From NCBI GenBank assembly GCA_021817145.1, contig JAKAVV010000022.1, positions 1 to 38,595 on the forward strand: 38,595 nucleotides of DNA. The letters run 5' to 3'. The stretch comes from a bacterium (GTDB lineage: Bacteria; Vulcanimicrobiota; JABDET01). Positions 140-31,155 of the stretch are shown piece after piece. Below the pieces are notes generated by a model. The model ran no database searches, was not told the origin of the DNA, and saw nothing but the letters and a program-made list of their open reading frames with translations. Every line of letters starts with the position of its first letter. Within the stretch, counting starts at the first letter, position 1. A program made the position numbers and the translations under genes.

Positions 140-2224
140 TTACGATTTTACCATATTATTACGATGCGTTATTGTTTCCGCCAACTGTTTAGGCACCTCT
201 TCATAATGAGAAAACTCCATTGTATAAGTGCCACGTCCTTGAGTCAAAGACCTCAAAACAGTGGCATATCCAAACATTTCCCCAAGGGGAACAAAAGCGT
301 GAATTTTCTGTACATTCCCTGCCGCTGGCTCCATTCCTTCTATTTTTCCTCTTCTAGAATTTAAATCCGCTAAACATTCTCCAAGATATTCTTCAGGCAT
401 GATTGTCTCAACCTTCATAATCGGCTCTTTTAAAATTGATCCTGCTTTTTCAAGAGCTTGCTGAGTGGCTAAAGAAGCAGCAATTTTAAACGCAATTTCA
501 GAAGAATCAACAGGATGGTAAGAACCATCTACAAGAGTAACTGCTACATCAATCACAGGATACCCCCCTAAAACACCTGACTCAAGAGCCTCTTTTACCC
601 CTTTTTCAACAGGAGAAATATATTCCTTAGGCACAACTCCTCCGACAATTTTGTTTAAAAACTTAAACGGAGATCCCGGTGGGACAGGTTCATATTCAAG
701 GACAACATGACCGTACTGCCCACGCCCTCCTGTTTGCCGAATAAATCTTCCCTCACCAGATGCTTTATGGCGAATCGTTTCTTTATAAGCGACCAATGGT
801 TTCCCAACATTTGCCTGGACATTAAATTCTCTCAACAATCGATCCACGATAATTTCTAAATGAAGCTCCCCCATTCCCGAAATAATGGTCTGTCCTGTTT
901 CTTCATTCACTTTTCTTTTGAAGGTAGGATCTTCATCTTGAAGCCTCTGCAGGGCAAGCGATAATTTATCTTCATCTGCGCGCGTCTTCGGCTCTATTGC
1001 CACAGAAATCACAGGTTCAGGGAAAGAGATGCTCTCTAAAAGCACAGGATGATTTTCATCGCAGAGCGTATCCCCTGTACTAGTATCTTTTAAACCTACA
1101 ACCGCACCCAAATCACCGGCTTCAATTTCATTGACATCCTCTCTGCTGTTAGCATGCATTCGCAGCAAACGTCCAATTCGTTCTCTCTTCTCTTTTGTAG
1201 AATTATAAACATAAGACCCGGTTTTCAGAACTCCAGAATAAACACGAATATAAGTTAGTTTTCCAACATAAGGATCACTCACAATTTTAAAAGCAATCGC
1301 GCTGAAAGGATCATTTCGATCCGCTTTTCTGACTGCTTTTGCAGAAGATCCAGGATCTATTCCAACAATTGAAGGAACATCCAAAGGACTGGGGAGATAA
1401 TCCACCACTCCATCTAGAAGAGGCTGAACTCCTTTATTTTTAAAAGAAGCTCCCAGAAAAACAGGAACCAGCGAAAAATTTAATGTGCATCGTCTGAGGG
1501 CGGCCTTAATTTCTTCAACTGCTGGAGGATTTCCACTTAAAAAGAGATCTAAAAAATCCGCATCATTTTCAGCAATTGTCTCCAAAAGTAAATGCCGAAA
1601 TTCTTTAGCTTTCTCCAGAAGAGAGGAAGGAATTTCTTTCACGGTTAAAGCTCCATAAGGCTCTTCAAAATAATAAGCTTTTTCCTGAATGAGATCAATC
1701 ACTCCTTGAAGATCATCTTCTATTCCAATGTTTAACTGGACTAAAACAGGATGGACGCCCAATCTTTTTTTAATGCTGTCCACGACATTTAAAGCATTGG
1801 CTCCTGAACGATCCAATTTATTGATGAAAGCAATTCTGGGAACTTGATATTTGTCCGCCTGTCTCCATACTGTTTCAGATTGAGGCTGAACTCCTTCCAC
1901 CCCAGAAAAAACAACGACCAGCCCATCCAGGACTCGCAGAGAACGTTCTACTTCAGCCGTAAAATCCACATGTCCAGGAGTGTCAATCAAATTAATTTGA
2001 TGGTCCTTCCAGACGCAGAAAGTCGCGGCAGAAGTAATGGTAATCCCTCTTTCTTGCTCCTGAACCATCCAGTCCATAGTAGCAGCCCCTTCATCCACTT
2101 CTCCAATTCGATGAATTCGACCGGCATAAAACAAAATTCGCTCAGTGGTGGTTGTTTTGCCTGCATCAATATGGGCAATAATTCCAATATTTCTAATCTT
2201 ATCTAATGTGAATCGCTCTTTCAT
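140..2224 (-). CDS. fusA: Elongation factor G
   Basis: A 694-residue, full-length EF-G, the GTPase that drives ribosomal translocation. GTPase motifs are intact: P-loop [12 protein letters not shown] at about residues 17-28, DTPGH at 81-85 and NKLD at 135-138. The C-terminal half carries the expected domain III-V sequences, such as [10 protein letters not shown] and the GGRGQYG region. It is the third gene of rpsL-rpsG-fusA-tuf, 27 nt after rpsG and 19 nt before tuf. No truncation or frameshift is seen. It looks like the main housekeeping copy because it sits in the canonical str operon. Confidence 0.98.
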
Positions 2225-2251
2225 TTTAAATTCTATCCTGCCTTTTTATCT

Positions 2252-2722
2252 TCACCAACGATAATGGGCGAATGCTTTATTTGCTTCCGCCATTTTATGA
2301 GTATCCTCTTTTTTCTTAACAGAAGAGCCTGCTCCTGAAGCAGCTTCCATCAACTCTGCAGCCAGTTTCTCCATCATGCTTTTCCCGGATCGAGAACGAG
2401 CATACTGAATAATCCAGCGAAACGCAAGAGCTTCTTTCCTATCAGGGTTGACTTCAACAGGAACTTGATAAGTTGCTCCACCCACTCGTCTGGGTCTCAC
2501 TTCAAGAGTTGGCTTCACATTCTCAAGAGCCTGTTCCCAGAGTTTAAGCGGGTCTTTCTTTGTCTTCTGTTTGATTAAATCAAGAGCTCCATAAAAAATC
2601 TTTTCTGCTTTTGCTTTTTTCCCTTGAACCAGGAGCTTATTAATAAAGCGGTGAACATCATCCCGATTAAACAACGAATCAGGTGAAACTTTACGCTTTG
2701 GAACAAAACCTTTTCTAGGCAT
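2252..2722 (-). CDS. rpsG: 30S ribosomal protein S7
   Basis: A 156-residue protein of normal S7 length, beginning MPRKGFVPKR and containing the conserved core VEVRPRRVGGATYQVPVEV at about residues 75-93. S7 binds the 3' major domain of 16S rRNA and nucleates assembly of the 30S head. It ends in AFAHYRW, typical of bacterial S7. It lies 7 nt downstream of rpsL and 27 nt upstream of fusA, so it is almost certainly co-transcribed with them. Confidence 0.98.
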   Translation of the reverse strand: MPRKGFVPKRKVSPDSLFNRDDVHRFINKLLVQGKKAKAEKIFYGALDLIKQKTKKDPLKLWEQALENVKPTLEVRPRRVGGATYQVPVEVNPDRKEALAFRWIIQYARSRSGKSMMEKLAAELMEAASGAGSSVKKKEDTHKMAEANKAFAHYRW

Positions 2723-2729
2723 CTTTTAA

Positions 2730-3170
2730 CTAACCTCCAGTTTTAGCGGCAGCAGCAGGCTTTGGCCGCCTGGCTCCATACTTGCTTCTTGCTTGTTTTC
2801 GATCTACGACTCCTGCTGTATCTAAAACCCCGCGCACAATATGGTATCGTATCCCTGGTAGATCTTTTACACGACCCCCTCGAATTAAAACAACGGAGTG
2901 CTCTTGAAGATTATGTCCTATTCCAGGAATATACGCAGTCACCTCAGAACGATTGGTTAAACGAACGCGCGCCACTTTTCTCAAAGCAGAATTGGGTTTT
3001 TTAGGAGTAACCGTTTTCACTTGAGTGCAAACCCCTCTTTTAAATGGATTTCCTAAAGTACGGAAAACCCTATTGTTGAGAGAATTATAAGAAAAGAGAA
3101 GAGCAGGGGCTTTTACTTTGCTGCCCACACTTTTCCTTCCATGTCGAATCAATTGATTAATTGTTGGCAT
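2730..3170 (-). CDS. rpsL: 30S ribosomal protein S12 with an internal insertion
   Basis: A 146-residue S12, the decoding-centre protein. The conserved blocks [19 protein letters not shown] and [16 protein letters not shown] are intact, including the lysines whose mutation gives streptomycin resistance elsewhere, so the sequence looks wild type. It is about 20 residues longer than the 124-residue proteobacterial form. The extra residues are an insertion after APAL (about residues 24-43, containing [13 protein letters not shown]), similar in place to the one in Bacillus S12, and an Ala-rich C-terminal tail. A clear AAGGAG site precedes the ATG. It is the first gene of the str operon. Confidence 0.98.
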
Positions 3171-3217
3171 AATCGCTCCTTTTTATCGCTTCCCTATTCA
3201 TCAATGGCTTCAGAATA

Positions 3218-3243
3218 AAAAACTGACATCCCTGCCAGTTTTT
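3218..3243 (-). terminator. Intrinsic-terminator-like hairpin just upstream of rpsL
   Basis: Read on the minus strand this is an 11-bp stem (AAAAACTGGCA paired with TGTCAGTTTTT, one G-U pair) closed by a GGGA tetraloop and followed by a run of six T. It ends only 47 nt before the rpsL start codon. It could end sucC transcription, with a promoter squeezed into the remaining 47 nt, or act as an attenuator in the leader of the ribosomal operon. I see no good promoter in the 47 nt. Confidence 0.6.
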
Positions 3244-3256
3244 GTTCGGAGAGGTG

Positions 3257-3316
3257 GACGAACCTTCTGTTCGTCAATCCATTCCCGAATAACGAAACAG
3301 CCCGAGGGCTGTTTCG
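3257..3316 (-). other. Two further hairpins in the sucC-rpsL intergenic region
   Basis: Two perfect inverted repeats lie between sucC and rpsL. The outer one (3293-3316) has CGAAACAGCC/GGCTGTTTCG arms around a four-base CGAG loop. The inner one (3257-3275) has GACGAAC/GTTCGTC arms around five bases. The outer one sits 44 nt beyond the sucC stop and could terminate or stabilise the sucC transcript, although it lacks a T tract. Together with the hairpin at 3218-3243 they make most of this 189-nt gap potentially structured RNA. Confidence 0.5.
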
Positions 3317-3359
3317 CATGAAACTGAAACCCATTGAAGTGTTAGGTAAAATCTATATT

Positions 3360-4508
3360 TTACACTTCTTTTCCAATACCTCCTGTTAGCTCAACAATTT
3401 TTTTTGCTCCTTCTTCCATGGTTGAAGCGGGAATAAATCGAGAATGAGACAGCAGGGCCCGCCCCTCTTCTTCATTTGTTCCAGACAGCCGTATCACAAC
3501 TGGAAACTTAATATTTAGAATTTTGTCAGCCTCAAGAATTCCTTTTGCCACTTCATCGCATCTGCTGATCCCGCCAAAAATATTAATGAATACCCCTTTC
3601 ACCTTTTTATCGCGCAAAACAATCTCCAGAGAATTTTTAACGGTTTCCCAGTTCGATCCGCCGCCGACATCTAGAAAATTAGCGGGTCTCCCCCCTTCTC
3701 TGCTGACCATATCAAGGGTCGTCATCACCAATCCCGCTCCATTTCCCAAAATACCAATATTCCCATCTAATCTCACATAAGGAACTTTTTTCTTATGCGC
3801 TTCTACTTCAAGGGGATCATCTTCACTCGCTTCTCTTAATTCCAAAAAATCGGGATGCCGAAACAGAGCGTTTTCATCTAAATCCATTTTAGCATCAGCA
3901 GCAAGAAAATCCCCTTCTGCTGTCAATACCAATGGATTTATTTCGGCTAGAACACAGTCATTTTCAAGGTAAATCCGATATAATTTTTTCATAAATTCAG
4001 AAAACTCTTTTGCCATTCGATGCTCCAGTCCAAGTTTTTGGCAGGTCTCCCGAACTTGAAATTCCATTAATCCGTATGCTGGATCAAGGTGGAACTTATA
4101 AATCTTTTCAGGAGAATGAGCAGCTACTTCTTCAATCTCAACACCGCCCTCCGCGCTCGCCATAGCAATTGTTTTTCCTGTATGGCGGTCCAGAGCAAAA
4201 CTTAAATAATACTCGTGAGAAATATTCAAAGCTTCTTCTATGAGAACGGATCTGACTTTTAATCCTCCTATTCTCATTTGCAAAATTTGAGTCGCTGCCT
4301 GCTCGACCTGCTGTGGTGTTTCAGCCAGTTTAATTCCCCCTGCTTTTCCCCTTCCGCCAGAATGAACCTGGGCTTTCACCACTGTTTTTTTATTCAATTT
4401 TTCAGCGATTTTAACAGCGGACTTCGCGGTTTTAGCCATTTTCCCTATAGGAACTCGAATCCCGAATTTTCTCAGGATCTCTTTTGCCTGATACTCGTAA
4501 ATTTTCAT
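3360..4508 (-). CDS. sucC: Succinate-CoA ligase (ADP-forming), beta subunit
   Basis: A 382-residue protein, close to the usual length of about 388. It starts MKIYEYQAKEILRKFGI, the family signature, followed by an ATP-grasp domain (HSGGRGKAGGIKL at about 48-60; LAEINPLVLT at about 187-196) and a C-terminal CoA-ligase domain with GNGAGLVM and NIFGGISRCDEVA. The beta subunit binds nucleotide and succinate in the citric-acid-cycle enzyme. An AGAGGTGAT site precedes the ATG. The alpha subunit gene sucD, normally directly downstream, is absent: the next gene downstream is rpsL. The partner must be encoded elsewhere. Confidence 0.95.
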   Translation of the reverse strand: MKIYEYQAKEILRKFGIRVPIGKMAKTAKSAVKIAEKLNKKTVVKAQVHSGGRGKAGGIKLAETPQQVEQAATQILQMRIGGLKVRSVLIEEALNISHEYYLSFALDRHTGKTIAMASAEGGVEIEEVAAHSPEKIYKFHLDPAYGLMEFQVRETCQKLGLEHRMAKEFSEFMKKLYRIYLENDCVLAEINPLVLTAEGDFLAADAKMDLDENALFRHPDFLELREASEDDPLEVEAHKKKVPYVRLDGNIGILGNGAGLVMTTLDMVSREGGRPANFLDVGGGSNWETVKNSLEIVLRDKKVKGVFINIFGGISRCDEVAKGILEADKILNIKFPVVIRLSGTNEEEGRALLSHSRFIPASTMEEGAKKIVELTGGIGKEV

Positions 4509-4833: not shown

Positions 4834-6363
4834 ATGAGCCTGACTGCTGCAAGACAAAATAGGGATTATAGTAAATCCACAGGTCAGATGAAAATGCTGC
4901 TTGATGAAGTAAATAATCTCGGATTTTTGCCAAACCGAATAAAAGAAGCCAGAGGTGTTCAGCCAAGTCCTACCTCGCAAGAATTAAAACGTATTTATCA
5001 GTTGAATACTGAATATGAATGGATATATAAAGAGAAATTTTTGATTCAACCTGCGCTGAGCAGATCACTCGTTAGCTTCCAGGCAAACAAAAACCGCGCC
5101 GTTTACCGCTGGTTTAAATATAAAGAGTCCTTTTCAGCCAGTCTGATTGAATTTCTTCTTGGAAAAAATGGAGCTTCCAGAGGTGTTTTACTCGATCCGT
5201 TTGCCGGTATTGGAACCGCGCTGTTTGCAGCAGCAGATTCTGGAATGATGGCTGAGGGGATCGAGCTGCTGCCAATTGGTCAGCGGGTGATTGCAATCAA
5301 GCAGATCATTGATTCAGGAATTAAGCTGTCTGAGATAGAGACGATTGCAAGATGGGCAAACACAGCGCCATGGGAAGAAAGTAAACAAAGGGAATCTTTT
5401 ACCGAGCTGCGTATTACAAAAGGCGCGTATCCCGAAGAAACACAAATCCAAATTGAAAGATATCTGGCGCTGATCGAAAAAGAAAACGAAAAAGCGCGAG
5501 AAATTTTATTATTCGCTTTACTTTGCGTTTTAGAAGCAATCAGTTTCACAAGGAAAGATGGACAATACTTACGTTGGGACTTCCGTTCAGGCAGGAGCCA
5601 GGGTAAAAATCCTTTTAACAAAGGAAAAATTTTGTATTTCAAAGAAGCTGTTAGCGCAAAGTTGCGGGAAATCATCGCCGATCTTCATGCGGCAAAATTG
5701 TCAGACAACTATAATGTGGAGCCTCAATCGCGGGGGGATATCAAGTTGCACAATGGATCGTGCCTGGAAATCCTGCCAAAGCTCCCGAGGGAATCGTACG
5801 ACTGCATCATTACATCTCCTCCATACTGCAATCGTTATGACTATACGCGAACCTACGCGCTTGAACTTGCGCTGCTAGGTGTTAATGAAGAGAAATTAAT
5901 GAACCTCCGTCAGAAAATGTTGAGCTGCACAGTGGAAAATCGCGCAAAAAATTTGCTAGCTATGAACTTAGCGTGGAAATCAGCCATTCAGATCGCAGAT
6001 CAGCAGTCCCTCTTGCAAGAAATCCTTCGTTATCTCGATACTCAGCGGAAACTTAATCTGCTCAACAACAATGGAATTCCACGCATGGTTCGCGGCTATT
6101 TTTATGAGATGGCTTGCGTCATTTCGGAATGCGCCAGAGTTCTCAAGCCGAATGCTCCTCTCATTATGATCAATGACAACGTCCGATATGCAGGGACAAG
6201 TATTTCGGTTGATATCATCTTGTCTGAATTCGCCAAGAATCTCGATTTTGAGATCAAAAATATTCTTATTCTGCCCAATGGCAAAGGAAACAGCAGCCAG
6301 CAAATGGGAGCGCACGGACGCAAACCTTTGCGAAAGTGCATTTACATTTGGCGCAAACGATAA
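4834..6363 (+). CDS. Type II DNA methyltransferase, probably N4-cytosine, AvaI/BsoBI-type (predicted CYCGRG)
   Basis: A 509-residue methyltransferase. The SAM-binding motif I DPFAGIGT (121-128) precedes the catalytic motif IV TSPPY (327-331), with about 200 residues between them that probably include target recognition. The TSPPY form is typical of N4-cytosine methylases. The specificity is inferred from the next gene, which matches the AvaI/BsoBI endonuclease family; M.AvaI is itself a methylase of similar size. It would protect host CYCGRG sites, and several occur in this window, including CCCGAG at 5784 inside this gene. The start is uncertain: the ATG at 4834 lacks a good ribosome binding site, and Met19 or Met21 is possible. 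Confidence 0.88.
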   Translation: MSLTAARQNRDYSKSTGQMKMLLDEVNNLGFLPNRIKEARGVQPSPTSQELKRIYQLNTEYEWIYKEKFLIQPALSRSLVSFQANKNRAVYRWFKYKESFSASLIEFLLGKNGASRGVLLDPFAGIGTALFAAADSGMMAEGIELLPIGQRVIAIKQIIDSGIKLSEIETIARWANTAPWEESKQRESFTELRITKGAYPEETQIQIERYLALIEKENEKAREILLFALLCVLEAISFTRKDGQYLRWDFRSGRSQGKNPFNKGKILYFKEAVSAKLREIIADLHAAKLSDNYNVEPQSRGDIKLHNGSCLEILPKLPRESYDCIITSPPYCNRYDYTRTYALELALLGVNEEKLMNLRQKMLSCTVENRAKNLLAMNLAWKSAIQIADQQSLLQEILRYLDTQRKLNLLNNNGIPRMVRGYFYEMACVISECARVLKPNAPLIMINDNVRYAGTSISVDIILSEFAKNLDFEIKNILILPNGKGNSSQQMGAHGRKPLRKCIYIWRKR

Positions 6364-6366
6364 ACG

Positions 6367-7320
6367 ATGTCCCAATCCTATCTTCGACACCTTAAATCGA
6401 GCAAGGATTTGGAAACTACTTATGAAGCCGTGCGTGCTGGATTTGTAGCGTTAGCTTTGGAAAAAAATCGACGCGCAACCCCATTTACAGCGGAAGCGCG
6501 TGATCTAAAAATCAAAGCATCACAAGCAGCCAAACCGGAAGATCTGGTTCATATAGAAGGGATCAAACGAGCCTTGTTGACCGCTGCTGGAGTCTCTGAC
6601 AAAGCGGCTAACCACTTACAAGACTCGGATAAACTTGAAGCTATTCTTGGACTCATCAAAAACTTTCTTGAACCAGCAGAAGCAAATTTCGTGGAAGAAC
6701 TTGTTTTCCGTTTTTTGCTGACACGCGGCGACACTTTAGGTGGTTCAATGCGAAACGTGGGTGGCTTTCTAGCTCAATGTAAACTGACACGCTCAATTAT
6801 GGCGCACTTGAAGAATGCTGGACAAAGCTGTGAATGGCTTCACTCCGACAACGCAATTTGGCTGCAGATGCCTGAAGATGACTCAGACATCGAATTGCAC
6901 TTACGAGGCTTGGCATGGACAGGAAAAGGTAGAAATCGAACACTAGTTTATAATGTGACAGTTCCTTTCCTTGGCAACAACGTCGATTTGTGCCTGTTTA
7001 ACTGCGCTCCGGAAACACTTTCCAGAACCACCTACAAAACCGCTTCAGCGTATATCGCGCTTGGCGAATTGAAAGGCGGTATTGATCCCGCCGGCGCAGA
7101 TGAACATTGGAAAACAGCGCGCACAGCACTGAATAGAATCCACGTTGCCTTCAAGAAACAGAAGCGGCACCCAAAAACATTTTTTATTGGCGCAGCCATT
7201 GAAGCCACAATGGCTCATGAAATTTGGACGATGCTGCGCCACCGCGAATTAAGCAGTGCGGCAAACCTGACAGAAAGCCAACAGATGGCTTCAATCGCCC
7301 ATTGGCTTTGCTCTCTTTAA
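6367..7320 (+). CDS. Type II restriction endonuclease of the AvaI/BsoBI family
   Basis: A 317-residue protein, matching the 315-323 residues of AvaI and BsoBI. The diagnostic block is Asp207 in NNVDLCLF, then the block [20 protein letters not shown] with Glu234 and Lys236. These fit the D-ExK catalytic residues of BsoBI (D212, E240, K242). A histidine, His247, lies 11 residues after the lysine, the same spacing as BsoBI K242 to H253. The family cuts CYCGRG. The gene begins 3 nt after the methylase stop without its own clear ribosome binding site, so translation is probably coupled to the methylase. All catalytic residues are present, so the enzyme should be active. Assignment is from remembered family motifs. 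Confidence 0.85.
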
Positions 7321-7361
7321 AAAGGTAAAAGAATAAAAACATGGAATTCGGAAAATAAATC

Positions 7362-8243
7362 ATGAACAACTGCCAGATCCTGCACGGAGATTGCCTAAAA
7401 CTCCTTTCAGAGAAAAAAATACGACAAAAAGTCGATTTAACTTTTTTAGATCCTCCCTTTAATCAAGATAAGGAATACAATTTATATGACGACAATTTAC
7501 CTGAACATGAGTACTGGCAGAAAATGAAAAACGTCTGTCGAGGGATTTTCGAAATTACATCTGAAGGCGGCGCCATTTACTTTATGCAGCGAGAAAAAAA
7601 TGTTGAATTCGTTTTGCAGTGTCTTGATGAAACAGGATGGTCATTCCAAAACCTTATCATCTGGAAGAAAAAAACTTCTGCTGTTCCCTGCTCTAACAAG
7701 TTTGGCAAACAGTATCAAATTATAGCCTTTGCCACAAAAGGAGAGACTCCCAGAGTGTTTAATCGCTTGCGAATTTCCCCCCCTCTTCCGCCAAATTACA
7801 AACATGAAAGAGAAAATGGAATTTTTTTGACAGACATCTGGGATGACATAAGAGAATTGACTTCTGGTTATTTTGCGGGGGATGAGGCTGTTAGAAAACA
7901 AAATGGCGAACGATTTCATAAGCAGCAATCCCCTATTGCTCTTCTGCTGAGAATCATTCTTTCATCGTCCATGCCAGGAGATACTGTCTTAGACCCATTT
8001 GCCGGGACAGGAACCACATTGGTTGTCGCTGAGCAGCTGAAGAGAAAAGGGATTGGAATTGAAATTGATTTAGAAAATGTAACTTGTATTAAAGAGCGGA
8101 TAGAGGAAATACGACAATCCGATGATGTGATGAAATTTTACAAAGATTACCTTTATACTGAAAACCTGAAAGAGATATGGGACACAGATCTCCCTTCTTC
8201 TACTATGAAAAAGAAAAAACAACTGAGTTTGTTTAATTTATGA
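7362..8243 (+). CDS. Beta-class DNA methyltransferase of a second type II restriction-modification system
   Basis: A 293-residue methyltransferase with motif order opposite to the upstream one. Catalytic motif IV DPPF (30-33) is near the N terminus, and SAM motif I DPFAGTGTT (211-219) is near the C terminus, which defines the beta class. DPPF favours N6-adenine methylation, but N4-cytosine cannot be excluded. The middle part, about residues 105-190, should hold the target recognition domain; I cannot predict the site. The end is Lys-rich (MKKKKQLSLFNL). Its stop overlaps the start of the next gene by 4 nt (ATGA), so the two form a tight operon. Confidence 0.88.
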   Translation: MNNCQILHGDCLKLLSEKKIRQKVDLTFLDPPFNQDKEYNLYDDNLPEHEYWQKMKNVCRGIFEITSEGGAIYFMQREKNVEFVLQCLDETGWSFQNLIIWKKKTSAVPCSNKFGKQYQIIAFATKGETPRVFNRLRISPPLPPNYKHERENGIFLTDIWDDIRELTSGYFAGDEAVRKQNGERFHKQQSPIALLLRIILSSSMPGDTVLDPFAGTGTTLVVAEQLKRKGIGIEIDLENVTCIKERIEEIRQSDDVMKFYKDYLYTENLKEIWDTDLPSSTMKKKKQLSLFNL

Positions 8244-9082
8244 GTTATTCTATCTATCACTTTTTTTACTCTCTTTTTCAGCAGAAGCAATTTCTTTGTA
8301 AAGTGAAAAAATTAGAAAGCTTTCCTTTTGATGAAAAGTTATTGGCATGTAAAAATAAAGGGAAATTCCCTGATCTGGCTATTCGCTTAAATAAAGATAA
8401 AACCATCTTCACGGGTGGAGAATTGATTGAACTAAAAGACAGCCAATCCTATACTGTTTCATCATTCAACTCAACGATCCCATCCAGAAGTAAAAAAATC
8501 GAAGAGATCATTACAGGTGAAAATAGTAAAGTCAAACAGCTGATGGAAAAAGCGGGTAACGATATATTCTCTTTACCTGTAAGAGATGTTTATTATCTTG
8601 TGAGAGGAAAGAAAAAACAACATGCAAAGGTCTGTTTAGTGTATGGGAGTTTCTTCGAAACTGTCAGCGTGGAAAACCTTATCAGCCAATCCTTTCAACA
8701 GGTATTAGAAGAACGTTTAAAAGAAAGCGGAAAAGAAATTTCCAACGAAATCAAAGAAGTTCTCACTTCTCTTTTATCACAACAGCATAACTTTAGTAAA
8801 GTCAGAAGCGTAGAAAAGTCTTCTGTGAAACTTAGATTTAGAATTATGACTGAAGTAAAAGCGGAAGGGAATATCTTGGATTCGAGAAAATATCCGGAAA
8901 TAAAAGACGATACATTAAACCTCATTTTGCCTTGTCATAATGAAAGTCAGGAATTGGAAGCTCGTAAAAAAATAAGCATGATATTTTCAAAAAAAGAACT
9001 TCAAGTTTTTGAAATCTTTAAAATCAAACATCATTTTAATGGATATTTCCTAGTCATGCAAACAAACCTAACTGATACCTAA
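8240..9082 (+). CDS. Probable type II restriction endonuclease, PD-(D/E)xK fold, specificity unknown
   Basis: A 280-residue protein with no family I can name. It contains a good PD-ExK signature: Pro44-Asp45 in KGKFPDLAIRL, then a strand ending in GGELIELKDS with Glu61, Glu64 and Lys66. The following segment, SYTVSSFNSTIPSRSKKI, looks like a DNA-contacting loop. The gene overlaps the beta-class methylase by 4 nt and ends where an opposing small gene ends. Partner, size and motif all point to the cognate nuclease of that methylase. It is more A+T-rich than the AvaI-like pair, so the two systems probably have different origins. A nuclease of another function is less likely. Confidence 0.7.
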   Translation: MSYSIYHFFYSLFQQKQFLCKVKKLESFPFDEKLLACKNKGKFPDLAIRLNKDKTIFTGGELIELKDSQSYTVSSFNSTIPSRSKKIEEIITGENSKVKQLMEKAGNDIFSLPVRDVYYLVRGKKKQHAKVCLVYGSFFETVSVENLISQSFQQVLEERLKESGKEISNEIKEVLTSLLSQQHNFSKVRSVEKSSVKLRFRIMTEVKAEGNILDSRKYPEIKDDTLNLILPCHNESQELEARKKISMIFSKKELQVFEIFKIKHHFNGYFLVMQTNLTDT

Positions 9083-12197: not shown

Positions 12198-13028
12198 TTA
12201 TATCCCTTTTACTGCTAAAACTTCCTGGGCTTTGTCCCTATTTCCACTGCAGCTTATGCGCCGTGGAGCTAACAAATAAAACAATTTGAATCCCGCTTTC
12301 TCGTAAAGTTCAATAATTCGCTCAGTAGCCTGATTAGAAATCAGAACAGGACCTTTATGCTTTGAAAGCCATTCCACTAAACGAACTTGATCATTCCAGC
12401 CAAAATCTTCTTTTGCATACTGAGTAAATTTTACGTCATAAGGAGGATCCGCATAAATAAAATCAGACGAATTTAGTTTTAAATTTTCAAAATCAGTGGG
12501 AAGAAACTCCCATCGAGAAATGAGATTTTGATAAGGCTTGAAATTTCTTTGATAATGAATGGTCTTATACTGTCCAAAGGGGACGTTATAAAATCCATGG
12601 CGATTGAACCGACACAATCCATTATATCCTGTTCGATTTAAATAATAAAAAAGCTCTGCAGCCTGTCGAATTCTGCTTTTCCCCATACGGATCAATTCAT
12701 TAAAAAGCTCCCGATGAGCATAATACATCTCTGAATCATTTTCCATTGGAATCGAAATGGTAAGCCCTTTTTGTATCCATTGATAAAAATTAATTAAATG
12801 AGGATTAATATCGCTTAAAAGAGCGTTTTCAGGCAGAAGTTTTAAACTGACTGATAACCCTCCGCAAAAAGGCTCAACAAGTCTGCAGCTGCGATAAGGA
12901 ACATAAAGAGTTTTTAACTGCTGAATCAGCCATCTTTTTCCACCCGCCCATTTTAAAATAGGTTGAATGGGAAAGCTCATTTCACCCAATTCAAGAGGCA
13001 GCAGTTCTTGTGTTAATCCCCTACCCAT
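12198..13028 (-). CDS. dam: Dam-type DNA adenine methyltransferase (D12 class)
   Basis: A 276-residue alpha-class N6-adenine methyltransferase. It has KWAGGKRWLI (about 26-35, motif X), EPFCGG (52-57, motif I), RTGYNGLCRFN (132-142) and catalytic DPPY (194-197). This arrangement is that of Dam, DpnIIA and MboIA methylases, so GATC is the likely target; GATC is common in this window. No endonuclease is adjacent, which suggests a solitary regulatory or repair-linked methylase. It is the last gene of an operon of secreted proteins, only 5 nt after the preceding stop, an unusual setting. The start may instead be the downstream Met17 (MSFPIQPILKW). Confidence 0.92.
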   Translation of the reverse strand: MGRGLTQELLPLELGEMSFPIQPILKWAGGKRWLIQQLKTLYVPYRSCRLVEPFCGGLSVSLKLLPENALLSDINPHLINFYQWIQKGLTISIPMENDSEMYYAHRELFNELIRMGKSRIRQAAELFYYLNRTGYNGLCRFNRHGFYNVPFGQYKTIHYQRNFKPYQNLISRWEFLPTDFENLKLNSSDFIYADPPYDVKFTQYAKEDFGWNDQVRLVEWLSKHKGPVLISNQATERIIELYEKAGFKLFYLLAPRRISCSGNRDKAQEVLAVKGI

Positions 13029-28787: not shown

Positions 28788-29522
28788 ATGGGTTCACTGA
28801 CCGAAATTTATCTAGGGATTTTCTTTACGGGATTTCTGTTTTCCGGAATCTCGTTTTTCATGGGCGCTGCTCATTCTATTGGACTTCATCTTCCTTTCAC
28901 TGGGCATGGAACAGATGGGTTTCACGGATTTCATGGAGTTCATGCAGGACACAGTGTCCAGGTCAGCCATGGACTCCATACAGGGCACTCTGTTCATGGC
29001 AGCCCTACAGGAACCCACTCAGCAAAACTTGGAGAGCCAGGGGGGGATAAAGAAGGGGTTTCCCCTTTTAACGCCATGACAATTGCGGCTTTTCTCACCT
29101 GGTTTGGCGGAGCAGGCGCCCTGCTCCATTATTATTTGCGAATTCCAGCCATACCCGATGATCTGGTTTCAACCCTTTTTGGAGTTTTTGGAGGGGGGAT
29201 CGTTTTCTTAGGAATGGGGAAACTTTATGCCATAGGAGATCAACCCATGGATCCCTCTCTCTCTGAAAAAGCGGGAAATATCGCTAAAGTTTCCGCTAAA
29301 ATTCCGGCTCAAGGGGTTGGAGAAATCAGTTATGAAAAAGATGGTTCCCCCTTTGTGAGCGCCGCAAAAAGCATTGATTTGGAAGAGATTGCAAAAGGGG
29401 CTCAAGTGGTGATTCTTAAATCTGAAAAAGGGATGTGTTATGTTCAGCCTTACGAAAAGTTCATGACTGAGGAAAACATAAATGAACCCATAGAAAAAAA
29501 AGAAGACAAACCTCAAGGTTAG
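28788..29522 (+). CDS. NfeD-like membrane protein with His-rich loop, flotillin partner
   Basis: A 244-residue protein. A first membrane helix (about 5-30) is followed by a 50-residue loop (about 36-85) with at least ten His among Gly and Ser, in motifs like GFHGFHGVHAGH and HGLHTGHSVHG. Two membrane helices follow at about 94-116 and 124-148. The C-terminal 75 residues (about 170-230: GVGEISYEKDGSPFVSAAKS ... GAQVVILKSEKGMCYVQPY) are an OB-fold typical of NfeD/YuaF proteins. These proteins pair with flotillins, and the flotillin gene follows by 127 nt, as in Bacillus yuaF-floT. The His-rich loop is not a normal feature and would suit metal binding. Confidence 0.85.
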   Translation: MGSLTEIYLGIFFTGFLFSGISFFMGAAHSIGLHLPFTGHGTDGFHGFHGVHAGHSVQVSHGLHTGHSVHGSPTGTHSAKLGEPGGDKEGVSPFNAMTIAAFLTWFGGAGALLHYYLRIPAIPDDLVSTLFGVFGGGIVFLGMGKLYAIGDQPMDPSLSEKAGNIAKVSAKIPAQGVGEISYEKDGSPFVSAAKSIDLEEIAKGAQVVILKSEKGMCYVQPYEKFMTEENINEPIEKKEDKPQG

Positions 29523-29649
29523 AGGAAGGATATTTAATCATCAGGTATAAAAATCATTTATCACAAGATTATGAAGTAAAATATCTGAACGAAACGATGA
29601 AAAATAAAACACACATACTTCGAAATTTGAAACAAAGGGGATGTGAATC

Positions 29650-31155
29650 ATGATTTTAGGAATTCCATATTATATAATTGTTCCATTACTTCTTATTTTC
29701 GCGTTTATTTTCATTTTAGGCGCTCTTGCCAATCTCTATCGAAAAGTAGGACCGAACAGGGCTTTAATTCGCTATGGAGCAGGTGGAGCTCATATTATAA
29801 CAAAAGGGGGAACCTTTGTTATGCCAATGGTGCAGCAGGCGCAGGAAATCTCTCTTGAACTCATGAGTTTTGATGTGGCTCCTGACAAAGATCTCTTTAC
29901 AACACAAGGGGTTGGAGTCAATGTGGAAGCAGAAGCCCAAATTAAAGTTGAAGCTAATCCAGAGAGTATTTTAAAAGCAGCCCAACAGTTTTTAAGCAAA
30001 AGCGATGATGAAAGGGAAAAAATCATTAAACTAGTGTTAGAAGGGCATTTAAGAGGGGTTGTCGGGCAGCTTACTGTTGAACAAATTGTGAAGCAGCCAG
30101 ATGTGGTGGTCGGAAAAATGCAGGAAACTTCAAGCCCTGATCTGGATAAAATGGGGCTTGAACTCATTTCCTTCACCATTAAAGATGTTCGAGATAAACT
30201 CCAGTATATTGAAAATATGGGGAAACCCAATGTTGCTGCTATTAAAAGAGATGCCCAGATCAAAGAAGCTGAAGCTGCTCGAGATGTGGCAATCAGAAAA
30301 GCTGAAACCGAAAAAGAATCCGCTGTTCAACAGGCGCAGAACCAAAACCTCTCAATGATCGCAAAAGCTCAGGCAGATCAAGAAACATCGGTTGCTCAAG
30401 CGATGGCAGACACGAAAAAAGCGGAAGCCCAGAGAAATTTCGAAGTTCAAAAAGCCCAGTATGCTGCTGATATTAAACGCCAGCAAGCTGATGCTGAAAA
30501 AGCGTACGAAATCGAAACCAATATTCAGCAGCAGAAAGTCATGACTGAACAAATTAAAATTCAACAGATTCAAAAACAGGAAGAAGTCAAAGTTCAAGAG
30601 TTGGAAGCAGCTAGAAGACAGCAGGAGCTGATCGCCACTGTAATCAGACCCGCTGAAGCCGACAAACAAAAAACAATTTTAATGGCAGAAGCAGAACAGC
30701 AGCAGATCGAACTCCTGGCAGGAGCTCAAAATAAAAAGATGGTGATTGAAGCAGATGCTCAGGCTCAAGCAACCAAACTCCAGGGGCAGGCTGAAGCCGA
30801 TATCATTCTGGCAAAAGGGCAGGCTGAAGCCCAGGCAATGAAACTAAAAGCTGAATCGTATCAAGAGTACAATCAAGCCGCTATTCTGGACAAGTTTTTA
30901 GGAGCGCTCCCTGACATGGTAAGCGGTCTTTCCTCAAGTTTTGCAAAAGTGGATAAAATTACTATTATCTCAAATGGATCCAATGGAAATGGGATCGGGG
31001 CGAGCAAAATTACTGGGGAAGTGGCTACGATCTTATCTCAAGTTCCCGCTATTCTGGAAAATCTTTCAGGGATCAGTGTTGGAGATCTGCTGAAAAGCCT
31101 CCCCTCTATCTCCCACAAAGTTCAGGTCAATGCTGCTGATGGACAGCAAAAATGA
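29650..31155 (+). CDS. floT: Flotillin (SPFH domain membrane-microdomain scaffold)
   Basis: A 501-residue flotillin of the FloT/YuaG type. A hydrophobic N-terminal hairpin (about 5-30) anchors it to the inner membrane. The SPFH domain (about 30-200) contains YRKVGPNRALIRYGAGG, GGTFVMPMVQQAQEISLELMSFDV and EGHLRGVVGQLTVEQI. A long Ala/Glu-rich coiled coil follows (about 215-400). The last 90 residues include DKFLGALPDMVSGLSSSFAKVDKI. It scaffolds lipid microdomains and oligomerises through the coil. An AAGGGG site lies before the ATG. It follows the NfeD-like gene and ends 3 nt from the opposing cysN stop. Confidence 0.95.
   Translation: MILGIPYYIIVPLLLIFAFIFILGALANLYRKVGPNRALIRYGAGGAHIITKGGTFVMPMVQQAQEISLELMSFDVAPDKDLFTTQGVGVNVEAEAQIKVEANPESILKAAQQFLSKSDDEREKIIKLVLEGHLRGVVGQLTVEQIVKQPDVVVGKMQETSSPDLDKMGLELISFTIKDVRDKLQYIENMGKPNVAAIKRDAQIKEAEAARDVAIRKAETEKESAVQQAQNQNLSMIAKAQADQETSVAQAMADTKKAEAQRNFEVQKAQYAADIKRQQADAEKAYEIETNIQQQKVMTEQIKIQQIQKQEEVKVQELEAARRQQELIATVIRPAEADKQKTILMAEAEQQQIELLAGAQNKKMVIEADAQAQATKLQGQAEADIILAKGQAEAQAMKLKAESYQEYNQAAILDKFLGALPDMVSGLSSSFAKVDKITIISNGSNGNGIGASKITGEVATILSQVPAILENLSGISVGDLLKSLPSISHKVQVNAADGQQK

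Follow-up and report, generated by a model that had tools for sequence, protein, structure and literature searches.

Among described NfeD proteins, YbbJ is of the NfeD1 type and has an SPFH1 partner (PMC2636767), and the cage formed by 26 QmcA-YbbJ pairs protrudes into the cytoplasm (PMC13086221). The OB (oligonucleotide/oligosaccharide-binding) barrel of Staphylococcus aureus NfeD is described as cytosolic (PMC11222466). In Acidobacteriota, PspA has been reported together with band 7/FloT proteins, NfeD and helix-turn-helix (HTH) regulators (PMC9239133). Both the pairing of NfeD2 proteins with flotillins and the HTH-NfeD-flotillin-PspA arrangement are already known. The new element is a loop rich in histidine (His), which we describe here in the NfeD2 protein of an NfeD-flotillin pair from a bacterium of the phylum Vulcanimicrobiota. 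The stretch analysed, called the window below, comprises 38,595 nucleotides (contig JAKAVV010000022.1, positions 1 to 38,595, assembly GCA_021817145.1). An earlier sequence-only reading had pointed to the loop and proposed a comparison of homologs; in that comparison the loop proved to be present in 77 of 77 evaluable related loci, with His kept in composition.

The pair and its parts are as follows, AF2 denoting an AlphaFold2 model and pLDDT its predicted local distance difference test score:

28788..29522, + strand: NfeD2 (YuaF-type) protein with the His-rich loop, 244 aa (open reading frame, ORF; structural similarity to NfeD OB domains and YbbJ)
28791..28877, + strand: helix 1, residues 2-30 (AF2 block with pLDDT 89, 95 and 80; hydropathy peak)
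28863..29066, + strand: loop between helices 1 and 2, residues 26-93 (12 His, 16 Gly, 4 Asp/Glu and 2 Lys/Arg in 68 aa)
28905..29018, + strand: core stretch of ten His, residues 40-77, mainly with H-x-x spacing (from the sequence)
29073..29237, + strand: helices 2 (96-117) and 3 (121-150), joined by a very short turn (AF2 model)
29280..29450, + strand: NfeD-type OB barrel, residues 165-221 (AF2 strands; VIA Z 11.0 to 3wwv, 10.5 to 3cp0 and 10.3 to 2k14)
29650..31155, + strand: flotillin (SPFH2), 501 aa (Pfam Band_7, 5.4e-26; Flot, 1.4e-9)

The NfeD protein has 13 His (residues 29, 34, 40, 46, 49, 52, 55, 61, 64, 67, 70, 77 and 114), those of the loop being mostly spaced by three or six. Residues 36-85 hold exactly ten of them, as the sequence-only reading had stated, plus 12 Gly, 5 Ser and 5 Thr. 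The position which that reading gave the loop, between the first and second helices, is borne out by the topology of the AF2 model.

Relatives were collected by scanning a flotillin alignment against 84,980 species genomes, which confirmed 290 loci; the best 80 were kept, picked by flotillin similarity, and the limits of the clade lie beyond this sample. An NfeD gene was found upstream in 77 of the 80, the other three loci starting less than 120 bases from the flotillin match, at contig ends. In every evaluable locus the segment between helices 1 and 2 contains at least 10% His, the lowest case having 3 of 30 residues (L083). The carriers belong to Acidobacteriota, Chloroflexota (including Ktedonobacteria)/Thermomicrobiota (Thermomicrobiales) and BRC1/Sumerlaeaceae (Sumerlaeota), and include the congener of the window's bacterium, 'bacterium FK4.bin95', whose NfeD is 75% identical over residues 1-240 and keeps the loop. 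Three metagenome-assembled genomes (MAGs) labelled 'Proteobacteria' (L015, L085, L088) are also among them; their flotillins fall among Chloroflexota-type ones.

Composition was examined in 83 distinct loops, drawn from the 80-locus set, from the window itself and from seven other members of its phylum, one of them the congener. They are 20-88 aa long (median 41), and since His makes up 18.8% of their residues as compared with 1.0% downstream (the region beginning at about the end of helix 3), their enrichment in His exceeds chance. At least three His are present in 82 of the 83 and at least 10% His in 81, the two poorer ones being L003 (4 of 53) and L007, an Asp/Gly-rich loop with no His. There is no Cys, Met is scarce and Gly reaches 23%. 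Fixed charge is low: Lys 0.9%, Arg 1.1% and Glu 0.9% (2.9% in sum), that is 2.0% Lys and Arg, with 4.3% Asp and Glu. His residues are spaced by three or six more often than in shuffled loops (174 vs 120 and 182 vs 111, respectively), and adjacent His are depleted (48 vs 124). The motif itself varies, from HLPHVHVPH-like runs in Acidobacteriota to GHLGHLGHLG in a Ktedonobacterales MAG and GHDVGHDLDHGG in a Thermomicrobiales MAG. The loop is thus conserved in its composition, not in its motif.

Where does the loop end phylogenetically? In the flotillin tree, the window falls into one clade with proteins of Acidobacteriota, Chloroflexota, Thermomicrobiota and Sumerlaeota (support 100/100), and within this clade of 80 rows all 77 scorable members, the window included, carry the His loop. 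The window branch is long (1.24) and joins between long branches are flagged, so its exact position in the clade is unsure. Eight NfeD2-like proteins from other lineages served as outgroup. Seven of them have short, mostly acidic loops with few His or none: 0 of 13 residues in Priestia, 0 of 20 in Bacteroides, 0 of 20 in a Thermomicrobium roseum plasmid, 0 of 19 in Streptomyces, 0 of 38 in Persicobacter, 2 of 22 in Pseudomonas amygdali and 1 of 31 in Variovorax. The eighth, Escherichia coli YqiJ, is intermediate, with 5 His in 36 residues, above the 10% threshold. A tblastn search of plasmids with the window NfeD gave one weak match; a flotillin match is present in 42 plasmid records, and seven of the 13 examined have an NfeD-like ORF upstream.

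Within the window's own phylum, a profile of helix 2 and the OB barrel found 26 places in 25 of 149 genomes, including weak ones at E 1e-4 to 1e-7, which mostly lie outside the ORF reading. ORFs were read around 12 of the 26 and yielded NfeD at five (L115, L117, L118, L125 and L130); L007 and L008 are two more. Short acidic loops with 0-2 His occur in four proteins, all of family f7, and the loop of L115 (family f3) contains 6 His in 43 residues, again above the threshold. In the flotillin tree YqiJ had been labelled as lacking His and L115 left without a label, so counts of loop changes along the tree are set aside; the statement on the clade of 80 rows holds regardless of them. Five phylum mates fall outside the window's flotillin clade. 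With a window branch this long and such joins flagged, lateral acquisition of the NfeD-flotillin pair by the window's genus would be plausible. The sequence-only reading had taken the loop for something not familiar from NfeD proteins; it is best described as a feature of the whole NfeD2/flotillin clade, not of the window protein alone, and its novelty stands in so far as we found no account of it in the literature (see below). Two side observations were made in this phylum: L117 and L130 are tandem NfeD2-like genes of family f7 with acidic loops (G014:C2:41229-42285), and the NfeD matches L113, L114 and L116 (family f13) contain one in-frame TAG each.

Next, we compared codons in ten disjoint pairs of nearly ungapped loops, the window being in none of them and each differing codon being counted once. 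At loop sites holding His, 18 synonymous and 19 nonsynonymous codon differences were counted. This is an excess of synonymous changes over the neutral expectation of 22% (kappa 4; binomial p 3.6e-4; with kappa 8, p 0.0035). The crude ratio is 0.154 at His sites, 0.338 at other loop sites and 0.164 in the OB region. In an alignment control with 85 overlapping pairs, His was retained in 84% of cases, compared with 56% in shuffled loops. By the synonymous/nonsynonymous ratio, the His codons show what appears to be purifying selection; by the plain fraction of changed sites, they equal the other residues of the loop.

The loop of the window protein has a history of its own. Both His (8 CAT and 4 CAC) and Gly (8 GGA, 6 GGG and 2 GGC) are encoded by a mixture of codons in it. 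A repeat search returned no repeats of 12 bp or more; diverged tandem repeats are discernible, one of 36 bp in two copies (28932-29004, 75% match) and one of 9 bp in 2.7 copies (28921-28944). Part of the loop thus looks like an old tandem duplication, and the diverged 36-bp unit suggests that low-complexity growth added to its length. The earlier reading would have been undone by low-complexity expansion with no conservation of His. Growth by duplication is indeed seen in the window, and the His composition is kept among relatives; probably both duplication and later retention of His took place.

The first protein is identified as NfeD by its fold. Against the window NfeD no Pfam or NCBIfam model matched at E<=1. 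The Pfam NfeD model scores 12.9 bits with the relative L016 and gave no match in four other relatives scanned; because the annotated Priestia NfeD, at 13.3 bits, is also below the cut-off of 29.1 bits, we do not weigh the missing match against NfeD identity. An AF2 model built from a 62-row alignment has a mean pLDDT of 79 (an earlier run with six sequences was poor, 60.6) and shows three helices (2-30, 96-117, 121-150) followed by the OB strands at 165-221; its confidence is low at about 31-90. F102 and F106 are invariant in the 62 rows, and G107 and G110 nearly so. The top four Foldseek matches are YuaF 2k14 (2.3e-6), YbbJ 8z5g (2.9e-5), 3wwv (3.8e-4) and 3cp0 (5.8e-4). With YbbJ, VIA aligned 143 residues over 1-224 (Z 8.3, root-mean-square deviation 7.0). 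A profile of the relatives matches the YuaF OB domain 2k14 at E 9.7e-10. The protein has a C-terminal OB barrel, three predicted hydrophobic stretches before it and an adjacent SPFH2 gene. On the profile match, the modelled helices and strands and the Foldseek and VIA matches, it is of the NfeD2 type, whose members have SPFH2 flotillins as partners (PMC2636767). We also tried the YqiJ family (Pfam YqiJ_N and YqiJ_OB), which E. coli YqiJ itself matches; neither the window protein nor five relatives matched it at E<=1, and it was rejected. The best structural-chain match of the flotillin ORF is flotillin-2 of 9l3g (E 2.7e-72), human flotillin-1 and -2 both being matched. The sequence-only reading had named an NfeD-flotillin pair with the same coordinates, and the fold and domain matches bear out both identities.

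By analogy, we infer that the loop is cytosolic, on the side of the flotillin, since three helices separate the N-terminus from a barrel that is cytosolic in S. aureus NfeD and the QmcA-YbbJ cage is cytoplasmic.

The genes around the pair were compared within about 3 kb of the 80 loci, the 25 commonest gene clusters being counted, most of which lack annotation. A cluster labelled as putative HTH regulator lies just upstream of the pair in 63 loci, and a PspA-like gene lies downstream in 61. Three of three scanned members of the latter match PspA_IM30. 'HTH' is a cluster label: among scanned members, L012 matches HTH_3, and L010 and L066 match no Pfam family at E<=0.001. In many loci of Acidobacteriota, Chloroflexota and Sumerlaeota, this conserved putative HTH gene runs up to or into the start of the NfeD gene (e.g. 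L012:1709-2272, L010:1658-2227). The recurrence of HTH and PspA neighbours points to a putative role in envelope stress.

Our favoured reading, a tentative one which we hold at somewhat less than an even chance, is that divalent metal is reversibly bound by the loops acting as one multivalent site under the flotillin cage, and that occupancy of this site alters NfeD-flotillin assembly in envelope stress. Binding of Ni, Zn, Cu or Co, or else pH sensing, had been suggested by the sequence-only reading. Loop 1-2 of the NfeD2 partner would have been turned into a disordered, His/Gly-rich and nearly charge-free segment. Many NfeD copies would sit under the SPFH cage on the cytosolic face, on the model of QmcA-YbbJ; if there are 26 of them as in that complex, each with 12 His in its loop, a single membrane patch would be lined by about 300 imidazoles. 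Jointly the loops could act as a reversible sink or sensor of moderate affinity for a divalent transition metal (Zn, Ni, Co or Cu(II)). Cu(I), Cd and Hg are less likely ligands because the loop has no Cys and little Met. Metal occupancy might compact the loops and so change the assembly of NfeD and flotillin, and of PspA where it is present, under envelope stress.

Several observations weigh against this metal site. No metal homeostasis genes were recognised among the 25 commonest neighbour clusters. The codon test covers pairs of relatives and not the window protein; in the same disjoint pairs the fraction of changed sites is 0.218 for His and 0.252 for the rest of the loop (p 0.57), and 0.160 for the OB region (p 0.17). 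The ratio of 0.071 obtained from the 85 overlapping pairs is weakened by their non-independence and by an alignment that favours His-His matches. There is hardly any charge in loop 1, and the positive-inside rule therefore gives no independent support to a cytosolic placement. Rarity is a separate matter: the bare DNA motif (CAY N6)x3 CAY is not rare in the window's genome, with 30 matches, two of them within the loop, and 20 for a reversed-pattern control; the weight of the observation lies in conservation among relatives, not in rarity of the motif. In favour of a metal site, His and Asp/Glu fractions of the 83 loops are inversely related (rho -0.45, uncorrected for kinship); taken with the mostly acidic outgroup loops, the relation would fit a cation-ligand role, as if metal-ligand residues were swapped.

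The main rival is proton sensing, which we consider rather unlikely and take seriously because gene order links the pair to PspA. Imidazoles of the loop, with a pKa near 6, would become charged upon proton leak or acidification of the cytosol, and the polycationic loop would bind anionic lipid or alter NfeD-flotillin-PspA assembly. The pair commonly stands between the putative HTH gene and the PspA-like gene (63 and 61 of the 80 loci), an arrangement published for Acidobacteriota (PMC9239133), and E. coli PspA has been linked to protection from proton leakage (PMC8581546). The scarcity of fixed charges would leave His as the lone titratable group in many loops, and a bog or palsa is named as the source of several carriers. 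Nevertheless, neither PspA nor an HTH gene adjoins the pair in the window, and in four of the six loops from Sumerlaeota and Thermomicrobiales (L010, L025, L083 and L086; not L061 and L078) Asp and Glu are at least as numerous as His, which better suits a metal site.

Two other explanations dispense with a ligand. A Gly/His tether might serve as a spacer or phase-separating linker for which being disordered and uncharged suffices, His being there for contacts with the membrane surface. Length variation from 20 to 88 aa with no fixed motif, 23% Gly, the traces of tandem duplication in the window, HLPHLHLPH-like runs at the start of many loops and the fact that changes are about equally frequent at His sites and in the rest of the loop all agree with such a tether. 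Its composition should drift, yet His stays at about 19% across loci with a GC content of 0.33-0.71 (rho -0.005 between His fraction and GC), and synonymous changes are in excess at His codons, so that we regard a mere spacer as improbable. Far less probable still is neutral low-complexity expansion with no function. The diverged 36-bp repeat and the commonness of the bare (HXX)4 DNA motif in the window's genome would suit it, but the loop persists in all 77 evaluable loci across several phyla, runs of adjacent His, such as slippage usually produces, are depleted, and the window's loop uses a mixture of codons for His and for Gly.

In the window, the flotillin gene starts 127 bp downstream of the NfeD2 gene on the same strand, with a glycosyltransferase gene upstream of the pair and a cysN-like gene downstream on the opposite strand. 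The congener's pair has a glyA-like gene upstream on the opposite strand and another ORF downstream (gene names from translations). Both have the NfeD-flotillin pair alone: neither HTH nor PspA lies beside it, so the pair stands by itself in the window. The sole PspA of the window's genome is on another contig (C34), and one HTH regulator query found no relative in this genome, in a search run without a positive control. Elsewhere in the window, a BsoBI-type restriction endonuclease (PF09194, E 5.5e-145) lies between two N6_N4 DNA methylase genes at 4834-8243, followed by an ORF at 8240-9082 with no Pfam family match. A D12-class adenine DNA methylase gene (PF02086) occupies 12198-13028 on the minus strand. 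At 140-4508, the minus strand also carries a sucC-like gene and, immediately downstream of it, rpsL-, rpsG- and fusA-like genes (names from translations).

In the parts of the open-access literature available, we found no account of a His-rich NfeD loop. Papers combining 'NfeD' with 'histidine' concern, in the passages seen, histidine kinases, His tags or single residues, and the mentions of histidine in the available text of PMC9239133 are of histidine kinases. The words 'histidine', 'glycine' and 'loop' are all absent from the main text of the YuaF/NfeD2 paper (PMC2636767), as 'histidine' is from that of further NfeD/SPFH papers. The loop may bear on the question of which signals or ligands are recognised by bacterial flotillins and NfeD proteins. 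Lying, by inference, at the membrane on the side of the flotillin, and by gene order near PspA, this compositionally conserved loop would be a mutable part through which an input, metal or protons, can be tested. The carriers include named strains (Ktedonobacter, Dictyobacter, Occallatibacter, Bryocella and Acidicapsa), and recurrence across phyla suggests, if true, a widespread metal- or acid-sensing part. A broader and distinctly speculative idea, to which we assign a low probability, is that loop 1-2 might be the ligand sensor of NfeD2-flotillin cages generally. It would be acidic, for hard cations, in Bacteroidota and others, and His-rich, for Zn, Ni, Co, Cu or protons, in the Acidobacteriota-Chloroflexota-Sumerlaeota clade, as the input of a widespread HTH-NfeD-flotillin-PspA envelope-stress system; hundreds of imidazoles beneath a single flotillin dome would amount to a bacterial 'metal or proton sponge' at the membrane.

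Compared with known systems, the window pair resembles Bacillus subtilis YuaF/NfeD2 with SPFH2 flotillins (PMC2636767) in its hydrophobic N-terminal segments, C-terminal OB barrel (2k14) and adjacent flotillin gene; the YuaF-type protein of Priestia differs in having a 13-aa loop with no His. Nearest outside the clade, among the proteins compared, is E. coli YqiJ, whose 36-aa loop 1-2 has 5 His and whose gene adjoins that of the flotillin YqiK. It has, however, its own Pfam families (YqiJ_N and YqiJ_OB), and YqiK sits on a distant branch. YbbJ of the QmcA-YbbJ cage (8z5g) shares helices and an OB barrel, but its chain of 148 residues leaves no room for a long loop. The HTH-NfeD-flotillin-PspA operon of Acidobacteriota (PMC9239133) has the neighbours found at most related loci, unlike the window and its congener with their NfeD-flotillin pair only. 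The closest parallel in mode of action would be found in zinc transporters, which have cytosolic His-loops. In ZnT7 this loop feeds a transport path, and no transporter is seen beside the NfeD-flotillin pair; the likeness, which implies no homology, lies in a long loop rich in His that is cytosolic and flanked by transmembrane helices. The ZnT7 loop binds two Zn with an apparent Kd of about 11-12 uM, and with all its His changed to Ser it binds none of these Zn (PMC10409766).

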